DNA from: Candidatus Raymondbacteria bacterium RIFOXYA2_FULL_49_16
GTDB lineage: Bacteria; Fibrobacterota; OXYB2-FULL-49-7; XYB2-FULL-49-35
Assembly: GCA_001789205.1 (NCBI GenBank)
Contig: MFYT01000072.1
Span: 1,882 to 6,889 of the forward strand
Reading direction: 5' to 3'
Length of the DNA stretch: 5,008 nucleotides
Shown here: one piece after another, positions 3 through 5,008 of the stretch
How the letters are laid out: each line of letters begins with the position of its first letter
Numbering within the stretch: position 1 is the stretch's first letter
Notes under the pieces: model-generated
What the model was told of the DNA's origin: nothing
What the model saw: the letters and a program-made list of their open reading frames with translations, nothing else
Databases searched by the model: none
Program-made: the position numbers and the translations under genes

Positions 3-209
3 GGCACCAAAGTTACGCTTTACGGCGAGCGCTTTGGCGATACACCGAAAAACGTGAAATTTTATAGTAACGCTTTAGCAACGCCAGTCGGCGCTGATTG
101 GACGGATACTATTATAAATGTCAGCGTGCCACTGCAAACGCAAAGCGGCGACGTGCGCGTTATAGATAATAGTGATTTGCAAAGCAACCCGCTGAATTTC
201 CGGGTTGGT
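3..209 (+). other. IPT/TIG domain (5' truncated by window edge)
   Basis: The segment opens with GTKVTLYGERFGDTP, matching the GTxVTIxGxxFG strand-turn of IPT/TIG immunoglobulin-like domains. It continues with a V-x-F strand, then WTDTIINVSVP and GDVRV, and ends in SNPLNFRVG, the usual final strand. These domains are structural spacers in bacterial surface proteins. The first residues may lie outside the window, and more TIG copies may precede it. Confidence 0.7.
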
Positions 210-3200
210 TCCTGTTTGGAAAATGGGCAGGCCGGCAGTGACAATTCTATGTGCGGAGAGGACAGTGTTTGTTGCGCGGAAAATACGCAGTTGCCCGGCA
301 GTTGTGTTGCCAAACAAGAAGATTGCGGCACAGTGGAAGGCAGTACGTATTCACAGTACTACATAGAATTCAGCACCGCCAGCGCCGGACAGGTTTCCTG
401 CGACGGCAACGCGGCGACAGTGGAGTGCAATCCAAACGTTGATTTATGCAACACATTAGGTTTGGGGTATACGTGCAGTCAGACATGCGTGTGCGAGCCG
501 CCAAAAGCGCCGCGAGTGATTGAGGAGTGCGACCGGCAGAACAACGATTGCAAACCCTACGCCGCCGGACCCAGCCCGTCACCGTGGACGCCAAATTTTG
601 ATACCAGTATTAACCGCTCATTAAGTTGTGTAAATTCGGTCATCACCGCGCGTTTTGATAAGAAAATGGATTTGAGTCGTATTAACAGTAATACCATTAC
701 AGTGAGCAAGTGCGGTGCTGACGACAAGGGAGCAGTTAATGCAGAGTCATGTCAAAAAATTGATGCCGCCAGCTCGTGGGCACTAACAAAATTTGACACT
801 TCAGACACTACCCCGCAGAGTGGCTTCAGCGTAACGCCCGGCGCAAATTTAGATACCAATACGTGGTATCAGGTTAAACTTATCGGCGGCGATAACGGCA
901 TAAAATCAGATGCCACGGCCGGTGGTTTGCCCATTTTTGGCAATAGCGGCGCGGATTACGTTTGGTATTTCAAAACGCGCGCCAGCGCTGATGCATGCAA
1001 GCTGGGTTGCGTGGGCGTTGTGCCGAACGTATATTCTTCAACCAAGCAAAACGAGTTGATTCCATACAGCACGATTGCCGATTCCGAAGACAACGCTTGC
1101 AATTTAATAAACGTGTCAGGGTATGATTTTACTTGGAAATCAAGCGATGAGAACAAAGCAAAGGTAGACCCGGATGAAAGTGTTTTTAATAGTAAAGAAA
1201 ACAGTGATAACAAAAGTTATACGGCGCTCGCAAAAACAATTGCCGAAACAACTCCCCAGGCGCCAGTCATTATAACTGCCACCGAAACAAAGAAAGGCAA
1301 AGAGGGGAGCGGCAAACTCTACATTACGTTCGCCCCCTTTTACGTTGTGACGCCATGGCCGTCCTGCCAGAGTGCTTGTCTGAACGCGGCGGTCGGGGCT
1401 GAATTCAGCGTTCCTGTCAAAACCATCTCACTCATTGGCAACGTTTCTTTGATTAAATGCACTGATGCGGCGTGTAACTCGTGGACCAATAATCAATTAA
1501 TACAGGTTGCGCCGCATGTGTTGCGTGATTCATCAGGAAAAAAGTTAGATTTGCAGAACAGCGGCAATTTGGAGAAAAATACTTATTATCGGGTTATTAT
1601 TAAAAATACCGTAACAAGCCGAGATGACGATAAGGCATTGGAGCGTCTCAATTTCAATTCAGCTAAGCCTTCAGCAACAAACGGGTTCGACTCATACTCG
1701 TGGGTGTTCAAAACCAAAGATACCACCTGCGAAGTAAACAGGGTTTCACTTGCTCCGCAGGATATATGCGTTAGCTTAATCGGGGATACTGCAAACTATG
1801 GCGCAACGCCGTTCAGCTCGCCGGATGAGTGTTCAACACAGGGCCAGCGGCTGAAAGGGGCGGATTTTAATTGGGATTGGACGGCGCAATCCGCCAAGGT
1901 CGGTCAGTTCACGCCTAATCCAAATGTCAATAATGATATATCTACGCATACCTCACAGGCTCCTGCAGAACCTGCAGAAATTGTGAAAGCTGTCGGGGCC
2001 GGTGATGTCAGTAATAATAAACAAACAGCCGATATTACAGCGAAAGAACATGCAACTGCAAAAAGCGATACGGCAGAGTTTTGCATTCAGTGCGGGTTTA
2101 ACCGTGATGACCAGTGTATTTATGCCAATGGGAATTCCGCAACAGAAGGCTACGGCGTCGGCGCCAACACCTGCTGTTATCCGCGGCCGCAGGTCAGTGG
2201 TTCAACGCCGGCGGACGGCGCAAGCAATATTTGCCGAAATGCGATGCTTTCGGTGCAATTTGACACGGCCATGGATATTGCGAGTCTGAATAAAAACATC
2301 ATCGTTGCGGCTAACTACGGCGCGGACGCCTGTCCGGACGGAACAAACTACCTGCTCTTGGCTGATGCCGGCCGGAATTCAGGTTTCCGAAACCTCTTAA
2401 AGGTTTCGGAAACCTTAACGGCCTTGACAAATTGGTTGGCAAATAAAATTGCTAAACTGCCGTTGGTTAACCATTTAGTCAGTATTACGAGCGTGCAAGC
2501 TACAGATTACAGCAGCCGCTGGTGCGCCATTACCGGTACGGTTGACGGCCGCAATGAACTTGGCAAAGGTGTCATCCATTTTTCGCCGAATGTGCTCTTG
2601 AAGGCGGGGACGCAACACGTGATTTTAATCAAAGGCGATGACAACATCAGTGATGGGGTGAAAAAAGGCGTGGTCAGCATCAACGGCGTAACATTGCGCG
2701 GCAAAGACAAGACGGGAACAGTTACCACGTACTGCGACGGAAAAGACAATTGCAAATTCAACGGCAATAGCTTCTACGGCGAGGCGATTGATTTTACCAC
2801 GCTTGGTGCGAGCGCGTTGCACCAGGGCGTCTGTGTCGGCGAGCACGTTTCTATTGACCCGGCCGCCTGGACGTTTTTTTCAAATCAAAACGACGCGCGC
2901 GATGACGATTCCAATGATGAGACAAACTACGATACGATTGACACCGACAACGACAAGGCATTCAACGCAACGTTGCAGTCGGCCGACGGGCAGGATTTGG
3001 CCTCACTTAATGATGTTTACTCATGGACGTGGCAGTGGTCGTCTGACGATCCACAACTCGTACAAGCTACGGAACAAACTATTGAGAAAACAGCTTTGGT
3101 ACAAACGAAGTCAGCAGTGCAAGGCAAAACCTATGTAAAAGCTGCCGCAACTATTACGAGCAAAGTTACCGGCGTGGCAAACGATACAAAAAAAGGGCAG

Positions 3201-4934
3201 GCGCCAGTAAACGTTTTTATGTGTAAAAATCCCTGGCCGGCATTTGACCCGGAACATCCGGCAAACTGGCCGTTTAAAGATAAAGATTATAATTTTGAAA
3301 CCTATTATTGCCGCGACAAAGGCAGTGCGCTGTTTAATGATGACTTGCCGGCGATTAGCGACAACGGCGTGATTTTAGGCAAAAGATTTGTTTGTTCTGC
3401 TGATGCTGATAATCCCGGAGTCGCCTGTACTGCTGACGCTAACACATGCAAAAAAGATGGAGCAGTTGCGCCGCAATTATGTGCGGGTATTTTAAAAGAA
3501 TTTTTATTCACCCGCCCGGGAAAACCGGAAGCGCCGCGGCTAATGGTTTATACTGGGCCATTGGCCGGAACAGATTGCTGGACAGGTGATTGCAACGGCG
3601 ATGGATTAACGGACAATTTTGATTGGTTTTTCCAGCAGTTGGCGCACGACCAAAGGCCTTTGCCTCAAAATGGTACTGCGCATCTCATTTGGAATGGCAC
3701 TCCTAGTCAAGAATACAATATTTATCAAAACGGTGATTTATTGGCTAATGTCAAAGCAGGTGTAATACCGACACCAGATGACTCCACTTCCCATAAATGG
3801 TGTGGCAGTGTGTTTTTAAATAATCACACAATAGTTGGTTGTACCGCAAGAATCACCGGATTAGAAAACAATATCGCCCATACTTTTGCAGTTACAAGCA
3901 TTAAAAATACTGCTGTAGGAAACGAAGAAAGCGCGTTCTCTAACATTGTAAGCGTGACGCCTAAACGCACGGCTGGGCCTGCCGCTCCGACAAATTTGTC
4001 CGCGTCGGTTAGTAATAACGTAGTAGTTTTAACTTGGACAAAAAGTATTGACGGCGATGTCAGTAATTACAAGGTTTATTTAGGCATAGATAAAGACGAA
4101 AAAAATGAAGTGCGCGACGCGGGCAATGTTAATAATTACGCTTGGCAGAATTTAGATTTTAAGCATACCTATTATTTCGCGGTAATGGCTGTGGCTGGTG
4201 GTAAAGAAAGCGATGCTAACAATACAATAAGAATAAATTTAGGGCCGATAGGGTATTGGAAACTAGATGAAGGGAAAAGTACTGTTATTAAAAATAGTAG
4301 TCCATTTAGCATCAATGGTCTTATAATAGCTGGCGCTTCTTGGAATGAAACAGGATTTTTAAGTTTTAATGGCAGTAATTATATTAGATTCCTCACCTCT
4401 GATTATTTGAATTTATCAATGCCAGTCAATGGTTTTACGCAAAGCGTTTGGGTAAAGCCGGACATTACTTTTGATATCACTCAAAACAACGCCGCCTCTA
4501 TTTATTTTGGTGTTTTGGGACATCAAGAAAAACCCGGCGCGCAAAATCGCTATCCTTCCATATTTGTCATGTCGAACGGGAAACTAAATGCAGGGTTTGG
4601 CACGAGTAATGATAACGGCAAATGGTGCAATATTATTACCAACGATTTTTTATTCAAAAAAGGCGTATGGAGCTTTGTCGCAGTTAATTATGATAGAAAT
4701 GCCAGCCAGTATAAAGTTTATTTTGACAATCAATTTATTGGAGCATATCAGCCCAAAAATGTTGATAGTCAAGAATGTAAAAATAATGATCCTTACGGTA
4801 TAAATAAATTAGAAATTGGTCGTGTTGACGATTCATATTTCAAAGGCCAAATCGCGGAAGTAAAAATATATAATTATGTCCGCACGCCGGAACAAATCAA
4901 AGCTGACTACGATAGCGCCAAATCGCGGTTTTAG
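3..4934 (+). CDS. Giant multidomain Ig-like/FN3/LamG surface protein, 5' partial
   Basis: The frame is open from the left edge to TAG at 4932-4934 and encodes 1643 visible residues. The GTG at 54 is not the start: codons before it encode the first strands of an IPT/TIG domain (GTKVTLYGERFG), and no ribosome-binding site precedes it. Domain order by visible residue: IPT/TIG 1-69, Cys-rich linker 70-189, three SbsA-like Ig plus Ig-like modules about 190-1073, NPWP Cys-rich segment 1074-1195, dockerin-like loop 1196-1207, FN3 1221-1320, FN3 1327-1412, LamG 1415-1643. I count 46 Cys in the first 1220 residues and 4 in the last 423. No LPXTG motif or C-terminal membrane helix is present, so any anchor must be upstream, or the protein is held non-covalently. 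No catalytic motif was seen. Such architectures occur in secreted adhesins, notably of Patescibacteria; an adhesive role is inferred. Domain calls are by eye. Confidence 0.93.
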   Translation, partial: GTKVTLYGERFGDTPKNVKFYSNALATPVGADWTDTIINVSVPLQTQSGDVRVIDNSDLQSNPLNFRVGSCLENGQAGSDNSMCGEDSVCCAENTQLPGSCVAKQEDCGTVEGSTYSQYYIEFSTASAGQVSCDGNAATVECNPNVDLCNTLGLGYTCSQTCVCEPPKAPRVIEECDRQNNDCKPYAAGPSPSPWTPNFDTSINRSLSCVNSVITARFDKKMDLSRINSNTITVSKCGADDKGAVNAESCQKIDAASSWALTKFDTSDTTPQSGFSVTPGANLDTNTWYQVKLIGGDNGIKSDATAGGLPIFGNSGADYVWYFKTRASADACKLGCVGVVPNVYSSTKQNELIPYSTIADSEDNACNLINVSGYDFTWKSSDENKAKVDPDESVFNSKENSDNKSYTALAKTIAETTPQAPVIITATETKKGKEGSGKLYITFAPFYVVTPWPSCQSACLNAAVGAEFSVPVKTISLIGNVSLIKCTDAACNSWTNNQLIQVAPHVLRDSSGKKLDLQNSGNLEKNTYYRVIIKNTVTSRDDDKALERLNFNSAKPSATNGFDSYSWVFKTKDTTCEVNRVSLAPQDICVSLIGDTANYGATPFSSPDECSTQGQRLKGADFNWDWTAQSAKVGQFTPNPNVNNDISTHTSQAPAEPAEIVKAVGAGDVSNNKQTADITAKEHATAKSDTAEFCIQCGFNRDDQCIYANGNSATEGYGVGANTCCYPRPQVSGSTPADGASNICRNAMLSVQFDTAMDIASLNKNIIVAANYGADACPDGTNYLLLADAGRNSGFRNLLKVSETLTALTNWLANKIAKLPLVNHLVSITSVQATDYSSRWCAITGTVDGRNELGKGVIHFSPNVLLKAGTQHVILIKGDDNISDGVKKGVVSINGVTLRGKDKTGTVTTYCDGKDNCKFNGNSFYGEAIDFTTLGASALHQGVCVGEHVSIDPAAWTFFSNQNDARDDDSNDETNYDTIDTDNDKAFNATLQSADGQDLASLNDVYSWTWQWSSDDPQLVQATEQTIEKTALVQTKSAVQGKTYVKAAATITSKVTGVANDTKKGQAPVNVFMCKNPWPAFDPEHPANWPFKDKDYNFETYYCRDKGSALFNDDLPAISDNGVILGKRFVCSADADNPGVACTADANTCKKDGAVAPQLCAGILKEFLFTRPGKPEAPRLMVYTGPLAGTDCWTGDCNGDGLTDNFDWFFQQLAHDQRPLPQNGTAHLIWNGTPSQEYNIYQNGDLLANVKAGVIPTPDDSTSHKWCGSVFLNNHTIVGCTARITGLENNIAHTFAVTSIKNTAVGNEESAFSNIVSVTPKRTAGPAAPTNLSASVSNNVVVLTWTKSIDGDVSNYKVYLGIDKDEKNEVRDAGNVNNYAWQNLDFKHTYYFAVMAVAGGKESDANNTIRINLGPIGYWKLDEGKSTVIKNSSPFSINGLIIAGASWNETGFLSFNGSNYIRFLTSDYLNLSMPVNGFTQSVWVKPDITFDITQNNAASIYFGVLGHQEKPGAQNRYPSIFVMSNGKLNAGFGTSNDNGKWCNIITNDFLFKKGVWSFVAVNYDRNASQYKVYFDNQFIGAYQPKNVDSQECKNNDPYGINKLEIGRVDDSYFKGQIAEVKIYNYVRTPEQIKADYDSAKSRF
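210..569 (+). other. Cys-rich linker region
   Basis: About 120 residues with 14 Cys, including MCGEDSVCC, YTCSQTCVCEPP and EECDRQNNDC. The spacing suggests small disulfide-bonded knobs, but I do not recognise a named family. It separates the IPT/TIG domain from the first Ig module. Disulfide bonding would require an extracytoplasmic location, consistent with a secreted protein; this is inference from Cys density. Confidence 0.5.
570..983 (+). other. SbsA-like bacterial Ig domain, module 1 (Big_5 type)
   Basis: The segment runs from PSPSPWTPNFDTS to YVWYFKTRA. Hallmarks of the SbsA-like Ig fold (Big_5, PF13205) are visible: a Cys followed by the ITARFDKKMDLSRINSNTITV strand-turn (F-x-x-x-MD-x-x-x-I/N), a middle strand NTWYQVKLIGG, and a closing W-x-FKT strand. 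The family is a structural repeat of S-layer and adhesin proteins. Confidence 0.7.
984..1340 (+). other. Second Ig-like domain of module 1 (Big_2-like)
   Basis: After ASADACKLGC comes an Ig-like segment with the strand YDFTWKSSDENKAKVDP, resembling the 'W-x-S-S-D/N-x-x-x-A-x-V' core of Big_2-type domains. It ends with VIITATETKKGKEGSGKLYI, the usual 'x-I-T-A-T' closing strands. The family assignment is tentative; the position directly after an SbsA-like domain recurs in modules 2 and 3. Confidence 0.5.
1341..1718 (+). other. SbsA-like bacterial Ig domain, module 2
   Basis: Begins YVVTPWPSCQSACLN. The strand VGAEFSVPVKTISLIGNVSL aligns with the F-x-x-x-M-D-x-x-x-(I)-x-x-N region of copies 1 and 3 but lacks the MD pair. 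NTYYRVIIKN corresponds to the middle strand NTWYQVKLIGG of copy 1, and YSWVFKTKD to the closing W-x-FKT strand. It is a diverged copy, shorter than the third. Confidence 0.62.
1719..2081 (+). other. Second Ig-like domain of module 2
   Basis: Contains VNRVSLAPQDICVSLIGDT, a Cys-containing loop (PDECSTQGQRLKG) and the strand ADFNWDWTAQSAKVGQF, equivalent to YDFTWKSSDENKAKV in module 1 and YSWTWQWSSDDPQLVQ in module 3. It ends in a strand (QTADITAKEHATAKSDTAEF) that parallels the closing strands of the other copies. The match to a named Pfam family is uncertain. Confidence 0.45.
1962..1979 (+). repeat. 9-base tandem duplication
   Basis: CCTGCAGAA occurs twice head to tail and encodes PAEPAE within the second Ig-like domain. 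It keeps the frame and looks like a simple slippage duplication in a surface loop. Confidence 0.7.
2082..2186 (+). other. Short Cys-rich linker between modules 2 and 3
   Basis: About 35 residues with CIQCGFNRDDQC and NTCCYPRP, five Cys in total. It resembles the longer Cys-rich linker ahead of module 1 in having a CC pair shortly before the Pro-rich start of an SbsA-like domain. Confidence 0.45.
2187..2807 (+). other. SbsA-like bacterial Ig domain, module 3, with long insertion
   Basis: The clearest SbsA-like (Big_5) copy. It starts PQVSGSTPADGASNICRN, continues MLSVQFDTAMDIASLNKNI, has a middle strand TQHVILIKGDDN and closes with IDFTTLG. At 621 bases it is over 200 bases longer than copies 1 (414) and 2 (378). 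The extra sequence sits between NYGADACPDGTNYLL and WCAITGTV, is rich in Leu, Ala and Lys, and includes the translated palindrome at 2381-2415. Confidence 0.75.
2381..2415. repeat. Intragenic double palindrome (15-bp stem, 5-base spacer)
   Basis: The left arm AGGTTTCCGAAACCT (2381-2395) and right arm AGGTTTCGGAAACCT (2401-2415) are exact reverse complements separated by CTTAA. Each arm is itself a palindrome apart from its central base (C at 2388, G at 2408; centres 20 bases apart). It is read in frame and contributes GFRNLLKVSET plus shared edge codons to the insertion of module 3. The design matches the hairpin after the stop codon. It may be a short palindromic repeat that inserted into the gene, or a protein-binding site; which one cannot be told from a single genome. 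Confidence 0.85.
2808..3221 (+). other. Second Ig-like domain of module 3, with acidic loop
   Basis: Begins after the closing FTTLG strand of the SbsA-like domain. It contains GVCVGEHVSIDP, an Asp-rich loop at 2889-2954 (9 Asp and 1 Glu in 22 residues), the strand YSWTWQWSSDDPQLVQ and the closing strands TYVKAAATITSKV and KKGQAPVNVF. It is equivalent to the second half of modules 1 and 2. The acidic loop could bind calcium. Confidence 0.5.
3222..3587 (+). other. NPWP-containing Cys-rich segment
   Basis: Starts CKNPWPAFDPEHPANWPF, followed by YNFETYYCRDKG, a Cys-rich part (VCSADADNPGVACTADANTC) and LKEFLFTRPGKPEAPRLMVY. I recall similar NPWP...F-x-TYYC-x-D-x-G...FxFT segments before FN3/LamG tails in Patescibacteria surface proteins, but cannot verify this here. 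Function unknown; it links the Ig stalk to the C-terminal domains. Confidence 0.5.
3588..3623 (+). other. Dockerin/EF-hand-like calcium-binding loop
   Basis: The 12 residues DCNGDGLTDNFD have Asp at positions 1, 5, 9 and 12 and Asn at 3, the ligand pattern of a dockerin type I calcium loop (D-x-N-x-D-G-x-x-D-x-x-D), followed by WFFQQL as the start of a helix. Only one loop is present, whereas true dockerins have two, so cohesin binding is not claimed; calcium binding is the likely role. Confidence 0.55.
3663..3962 (+). other. Fibronectin type III domain 1
   Basis: The sequence shows the FN3 strand order: AHLIWNGTPSQEYNIYQNG (B-C strands), ARITGLENNIAHTFAVTSI (the L-x-x-x-x-x-Y/F-x-V-x-A/S signature) and ESAFSNIVSVTP (G strand). 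A loop with two Cys (KWCGSV, VGCTAR) lies between strands. It acts as a spacer before the terminal LamG domain. Confidence 0.75.
3981..4238 (+). other. Fibronectin type III domain 2
   Basis: A textbook FN3 sequence: AAPTNLSASVSNNVVVLTW, SNYKVYLG and the YYFAVMAVAGGKESD signature, ending in NTIRINLG. It has no Cys. It follows FN3 domain 1 after a short Pro/Ala linker. Confidence 0.85.
4245..4931 (+). other. C-terminal LamG / concanavalin A-like domain (LamG_3 type)
   Basis: The domain opens PIGYWKLDEGKST, continues with SPFSINGLI and LSFNGSNYIRF, has the core strand VNGFTQSVWVKP and then WSFVAVNYDRNASQYKVYFD, and ends with GQIAEVKIYNYVRTPEQIKADY. All are hallmarks of LamG_3 (PF13385) jelly-roll domains, which bind carbohydrate or protein ligands. 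It is the last domain, only a few residues from the stop, and is encoded in AT-rich DNA. Confidence 0.85.
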
Positions 4935-4945
4935 ATAAAAATAGA

Positions 4946-4997
4946 GACATCTGATGATAGATGTGACATCCGATGTCGCTGAACGACATCGGATGTC
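4946..4997. repeat. Three GACATC-N-GATGTC-like repeats, spaced 19 and 20 bases
   Basis: GACATCTGATGAT (4946-4958), GACATCCGATGTC (4965-4977) and GACATCGGATGTC (4985-4997) share a 13-base quasi-palindromic core with a variable centre (T, C, G). The first copy is degenerate in its last two bases. The second and third form the arms of the large hairpin. The array fills most of the space after the stop codon. Confidence 0.7.
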
Positions 4998-5000
4998 ACA
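4962..5000. terminator. Perfect 17-bp hairpin after the stop codon, possible terminator
   Basis: TGTGACATCCGATGTCG (4962-4978) pairs exactly with 4984-5000 around the loop CTGAA, starting 27 bases after the stop codon. The position suits an end-of-gene structure or a transcript-stabilising hairpin. The following bases visible (ACCCTACG) are not a T-run, so intrinsic termination is doubtful. The same structural design inside the coding sequence argues that this may be a member of a palindromic repeat family instead. Confidence 0.5.
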
Positions 5001-5008
5001 ACCCTACG

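Follow-up and report, generated by a model that had tools for sequence, protein, structure and literature searches.

We analysed a window of 5,008 nt on contig C72, which is filed in a nominal 5.4-Mb genome of Candidatus Raymondbacteria (G000). The window carries part of one large gene and two palindromic elements, E1 and E2, with the following features.

3-4934, + strand: 3' portion of a large surface-protein-like gene encoding Big_5, fn3 and Laminin_G_3 domains, open at the window's left end
2381-2395, unstranded: left arm of E1, AGGTTTCCGAAACCT, a hairpin by itself with a 6-bp stem and a 3-nt loop
2396-2400, unstranded: spacer of E1, CTTAA
2401-2415, unstranded: right arm of E1, AGGTTTCGGAAACCT
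4962-4978, unstranded: left arm of E2, TGTGACATCCGATGTCG
4979-4983, unstranded: spacer of E2, CTGAA
4984-5000, unstranded: right arm of E2, CGACATCGGATGTCACA, upstream of a RAYT-type gene

E1 lies in frame in the 3-4934 gene and encodes the peptide GFRNLLKVSETL, and E2 starts 28 nt past the stop codon of the same gene. When 12 surface-protein homologues were compared for an empty E1 site, the corresponding loop was variable in length and no clean empty site was found.

The arms of E1 (2381-2415) and E2 (4962-5000) are fully complementary, and each arm is a 6-bp palindrome around a 3-nt centre. The centres lie at 2388 and 2408 in E1 and at 4971 and 4991 in E2, and 7 of 15 arm bases are identical between the two elements. 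The original prediction had described a shared plan of perfect inverted repeats, a 5-nt spacer and near-palindromic arms, and this description is exact in every position. Folded as single-stranded DNA, the elements form one long hairpin (-16.6 kcal/mol for E1 and -20.9 kcal/mol for E2), and their single arms fold as small hairpins of -3.1 kcal/mol each. No perfect 15-5-15 inverted repeat occurred in 3 Mb of Markov-simulated window sequence with the same dinucleotide make-up. The whole of E1 scores 41.3 bits with our element model R1. Two further details of the predicted plan, a spacing of 20 bases between centres and a TCCGA centre, hold for E1 and E2 but not across the family, where the spacing is 19, 20 or more and other members have the centres TTAGA, TTTAA, CTTAG and CCCGG.

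The surroundings of E2 show other repeats. A degenerate partial palindrome, GACATCTGATGATAGATGT, adjoins E2 at 4945-4962 and resembles its arms; it is possibly a decayed third arm. In addition, a 25-nt stretch at the end of the gene, CTACGATAGCGCCAAATCGCGGTTT (window 4907-4934; C14:26211 in the Falkowbacteria genome G001), recurs at 96% identity 97 nt on. This second copy runs from window position 5003 onward (C14:26308), so that a copy of the gene's 3' end lies on each side of E2, an arrangement that could stem from a tandem duplication around E2.

Positions 1-8903 of C72 (40,629 bp in total) are 100% identical, N runs aside, to MFGL01000014.1 19383-28501 from Ca. Falkowbacteria RIFOXYC2_FULL_47_12. 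N runs lie on either side of the window in C72, and one 1,599-bp piece of the contig that matches MFGL01000014.1 at 98.7% spans an N run. When the whole genome collection was searched, the exact E1 pattern was found in seven stretches, all in two Candidatus Falkowbacteria genomes, and within G000 the element model matched on C72 only. Judged from these sequence matches, C72 is very probably a Falkowbacteria contig misbinned into an unrelated 5.4-Mb genome. The original prediction had proposed counting further copies of the plan in the source genome. In the nominal genome G000 this count came out negative (the two window elements, two chance matches and nothing else), but in the Falkowbacteria genome it came out positive, with 16 elements. 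A scan of G000 alone would have spoken against the finding because C72 belongs, very probably, to Falkowbacteria.

The 16 elements, inverted repeats with self-palindromic arms, were found in 558 kb of G001, and none were found in three Markov controls. These data bear out the suggestion that E1 and E2 are members of a short palindromic repeat family. Several arm classes occur in G001:

AGGTTTCSGAAACCT, the commonest class
AGGAGTYNRACTCCT, a further class
AGGGGTTTAACCCCT, a further class
AGGAATCCAATTCC, a further class
GACATCSGATGTC, the class of the E2 arms, a single copy in the 558 kb

The 13-mer core of the E1-class arm occurs 20 times in the 558 kb, 18 of them in doublets. The E1 class is confined to two of the six genomes of the family, and these are the genomes that have the RAYT gene adjoining E2. 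Across 28 elements from G001 and related genomes, compensatory changes were observed in 13 of 14 arm pairs, and 99.2% of cells paired versus 25-51% when the partner was slid; since the 28 elements were chosen for self-complementarity, this covariation is partly circular and describes a constraint rather than proving it. Copies lie at unrelated sites and do not share flanks. None of the 16 elements had an adjacent direct repeat of at least 3 nt, as a target-site duplication would leave. At the hairpin foot, where a GTAG-like guide tetranucleotide was looked for, GTAG preceded 1 of 40 E1-class arms with both strands counted; only a weak 5' purine-A was seen there.

Twelve of the 16 elements in G001 are in frame within open frames of 190-1645 aa, and E1 is among these cases. 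Genomes of the Falkowbacteria type are mostly coding, so this placement indicates that genes are not avoided and does not prove that they are preferred. In topA, the element accounts for exactly 12 extra residues relative to E. coli topoisomerase I. The PrmC alignment stops just before the element carried by prmC. In ychF, the element peptide aligns without net gain against known YchF, suggesting a replacement or an old insertion. By reading of the sequences, further element-bearing frames appear to be TsaB-like, O-antigen-ligase-like, glycosyltransferase and FGE-like.

Two other repeats were noted in these proteins. The prmC-like frame on C13 of G001, which has an E1-class element, also carries a second, degenerate element-like peptide of the GGAATCC class, RNPIPRYRGIGF, at residues about 110-122. 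The peptide PPLIRGGSEGGV is common to two unrelated proteins of G001, encoded by the frame at 1031 on C14 and the frame at 393 on C22, which suggests a second repeat family translated in frame.

The original prediction had also proposed looking for a linked REP-associated, Y1 transposase-like gene. Such a gene is present just beyond E2:

MFGL01000014.1 26417-27031: RAYT-type Y1 transposase gene of 205 codons, starting near window position 5113, about 105 bp past the window's end

The 205-aa protein has the HUH motif NHFH and the conserved Tyr, and it matches Pfam Y1_Tnp. Its sole NCBIfam match, to REP_Tyr_transpos (NF047646), is weak and below the cut-off. A structure model (pLDDT 90.3) has as its top match 4er8, a structure of the E. 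coli RAYT in complex with a REP hairpin, followed by the IS608 and ISDra2 transposases. The gene is bracketed by the doublets AGGAGTTAGACTCCT and AGGAGTCCGACTCCT, and inside it lies an in-frame doublet, AGGGGTTTAACCCCT-TTAAG-AGGGGTTAAACCCCT, which encodes RGLTPLRGVKPL. The elements that this gene carries are of other arm classes (GGGGTTT.., GGAGT..) than E1 or E2.

We investigated how closely elements and RAYT genes are associated beyond this locus. RAYT-type loci of the order contain 25 doublets in 93 kb. IS200-type Y1 genes were considered as the mobilising enzyme and rejected, as their loci are nearly without elements (1 in 83 kb). We searched 111 genomes of the order with a covariance model of the doublet, trained on the elements of G001 and the RAYT loci, and 22 of them contained copies. 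Doublets were present in 15 of 20 genomes with a homologue of the Falkowbacteria RAYT versus 7 of 91 without one (Fisher P = 1.4e-9, a value that overstates independence because the genomes are related by descent). All 15 genomes with both RAYT and elements also have copies away from the RAYT locus. The 7 element-bearing genomes lack a close RAYT homologue, and some of them have weaker Y1 matches. Across the phylum, RAYT homologues were found in 126 of 379 sampled genomes. Of the 82 loci with enough flanking sequence, 45 have a hairpin no more than 90 nt downstream and 46 have one no more than about 120 nt upstream.

Many of these genes also contain a hairpin of their own. Among 83 distinct Y1 frames, almost all RAYT-type, 33 contain an internal hairpin with 9 or more net pairs. 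A single loop, lying between the first helix and the strand that leads to the HUH motif, holds 23 of the 33. This loop makes up about 18% of the length (binomial P = 1.5e-10 for clustering, with relatedness ignored). In the model of the Falkowbacteria RAYT, the same loop (residues 41-60, pLDDT 57) is the main internal stretch of low confidence. On average, an internal hairpin has 15.5 nt identical to the flanks of its own gene versus 7.1 to those of other loci, and none of 5000 permutations reached this. The own locus is the strict best match for 16 of the 33, with 19-40 identical nt in most of those 16. At locus L246, CCTGCAGGGCCAGGCCCTGCAGG occurs upstream of, inside and downstream of the RAYT. 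At the RAYT adjoining E2, the internal arms belong to other classes than the flanking ones, and the match between them is not above chance. In an E. coli rayT control no internal hairpin of 6 net pairs was found, in a scan that also missed the known flanking REPs of that gene, which have bulged stems; the control therefore carries little weight.

Variants of this arrangement were seen at several loci. L121 and L125 have, inside the RAYT frame, palindromes with a length of about 60 nt that are translated in frame. In L194, L199, L220, L224, L228 and L117, the internal hairpin lies outside the pre-HUH loop, for example after the HLNP motif, and in several of these it still matches the flanking palindromes.

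In the open-licence literature we found no description of hairpin copies internal to RAYT genes and nothing relevant on RAYT or palindromic repeats in Patescibacteria. One possible reading, which we put forward tentatively and at less than even odds, is that the internal hairpin, most often located in the disordered loop that precedes the HUH strand, is a functional part of patescibacterial RAYT genes: it would be the gene's own recognition hairpin, coevolving with the flanking palindromes and acting as a cis signal that makes the gene its own substrate. Under the same tentative reading, it might serve autoregulation or cis-preference, or mark an inner end of a mobile unit. Should the internal copy prove functional, RAYT-hairpin coevolution could be tested directly, since a single reading frame encodes both partners.

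Other explanations of the elements were weighed against these data. Spread by replication slippage, by template switching at palindromes or by gene conversion would leave the RAYT as a passenger or a binding regulator. This deserves consideration because RAYT-driven mobility is deduced and RAYTs of other bacteria are regarded as domesticated (PMC8266576), but the copies sit at unrelated sites without shared flanks and the presence of elements tracks that of RAYT; we regard such spread as unlikely. That a DDE transposase acting on terminal inverted repeats moves the elements as ordinary MITEs we hold to be very unlikely. The elements are short, dispersed and perfectly inverted, and some lie in frame in genes as in several MITEs (PMC10969869). 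However, a target-site duplication is absent at all 16 elements, the arms are self-palindromic, as DDE ends need not be, and the elements cluster at RAYT-type Y1 loci.

If E2 served the surface-protein gene as a terminator or as a stabiliser of mRNA 3' ends, with E1 unrelated, this would agree with the position of E2 just past the stop codon and with its stable fold. Against this, no T-run follows E2 and no terminator was called, and the same plan is present inside the gene in E1 and recurs genome-wide. The explanation is accordingly highly improbable, and E2 as a terminator was rejected for want of the T-run; E2 may still have a secondary effect on mRNA ends. The original prediction had offered, as an alternative, paired sites for a dimeric DNA-binding protein two helical turns apart. 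The 20-base centre spacing and symmetric arms of both E1 and E2 would suit such operators, yet the family spacing varies from 19 up, arm sequences vary freely among copies, and the copies are dispersed, most of them within frames of unrelated genes (topA, prmC, ychF, tsaB-like). This alternative is not supported, and we give it almost no credence.

We consider it likely that E1 and E2 are REPIN-like doublets in a low-copy, multi-class family of non-autonomous mobile elements of Candidatus Falkowbacteria, belonging to a RAYT/TnpA-REP-type system. The structure, dispersal and covariation of the elements, their linkage to and co-occurrence with RAYT, their in-frame coding sites and their lack of target duplication are directly in hand. 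From these we infer that a RAYT-type transposase moves the doublets; the RAYT adjoining E2 may be the one that moves the E1 class, and the movement may be recent. In such a system, the linked Y1 HUH transposase would recognise the folded arms as hairpins in single-stranded DNA, cut beside the hairpin and paste the doublet elsewhere in trans without target duplication. The absence of target duplication at the elements fits the Y1 HUH mechanism. Characterised TnpA-REP enzymes are a model for the steps of binding one arm, cutting and joining (PMC8266576), and two inverted arms suit a dimer, as proposed for REPINs (PMC3116915). Arm sequences may drift along with transposase specificity, giving rise to structure-conserving covariation and several arm classes. 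A doublet is short and has several open reading frames, so one that inserts into a gene could survive there as an in-frame peptide.

REPINs serve as a model of the way in which very short sequences are maintained in bacterial genomes with help from a transposase present in single copy, and they are known mainly as extragenic repeats in free-living bacteria. Here a comparable system is found in uncultured Patescibacteria, whose small genomes leave little room between genes; it adds peptides to core enzymes and places hairpins of its own within the gene for the transposase. The original prediction knew of no named family with this exact plan. The plan itself is that of a REPIN or a self-complementary TIRtron, but we found no match to these sequences among described families.

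The REPIN and REP-RAYT systems (REPtrons; Pseudomonas fluorescens SBW25, PMC3116915; E. coli TnpA-REP, PMC8266576) share with the elements an inverted REP doublet, two alternative folds (either a single long hairpin or a pair of small hairpins), doublets outnumbering singlets (as in the E1-class arms) and several classes per genome. They also share a linked Y1 HUH transposase of the same fold whose gene is bracketed by repeats. In contrast, a GTAG/GTGG guide tetranucleotide is present there and none is seen in the Falkowbacteria elements, copies number hundreds rather than tens, and REPs are extragenic whereas most of the present elements lie inside reading frames. Hairpin copies inside the transposase gene are a further difference. 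Membership in REP proper fails on two features, the GTAG tag and the extragenic location, and as far as sequence can tell the TIRtron description also fits.

As described in the available text of Di Nocera et al. 2013 (PMC3733652), TIRtrons (TIRYT) consist of RAYT-like genes between palindromic repeats that lack GTAG; some of these repeats are self-complementary and occur in dimers, and copy numbers are moderate. The Falkowbacteria locus likewise has palindromic repeats devoid of GTAG on both sides of a RAYT-like gene, together with a derived repeat family. That available text describes no internal in-gene copy and does not mention Patescibacteria. The same text reports intragenic GTAG/CGTC REPs, palindromes that lie in frame in housekeeping genes and are translated; it reports no linked transposase for the CGTC repeats, whereas a RAYT-type gene is linked here. 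Rickettsia palindromic elements (Ogata et al., as cited in PMC10969869) are also in-frame, translated palindromes in housekeeping genes. They measure about 150 bp, in contrast to the 34-36 nt of the elements described here, which have a linked RAYT-type gene.
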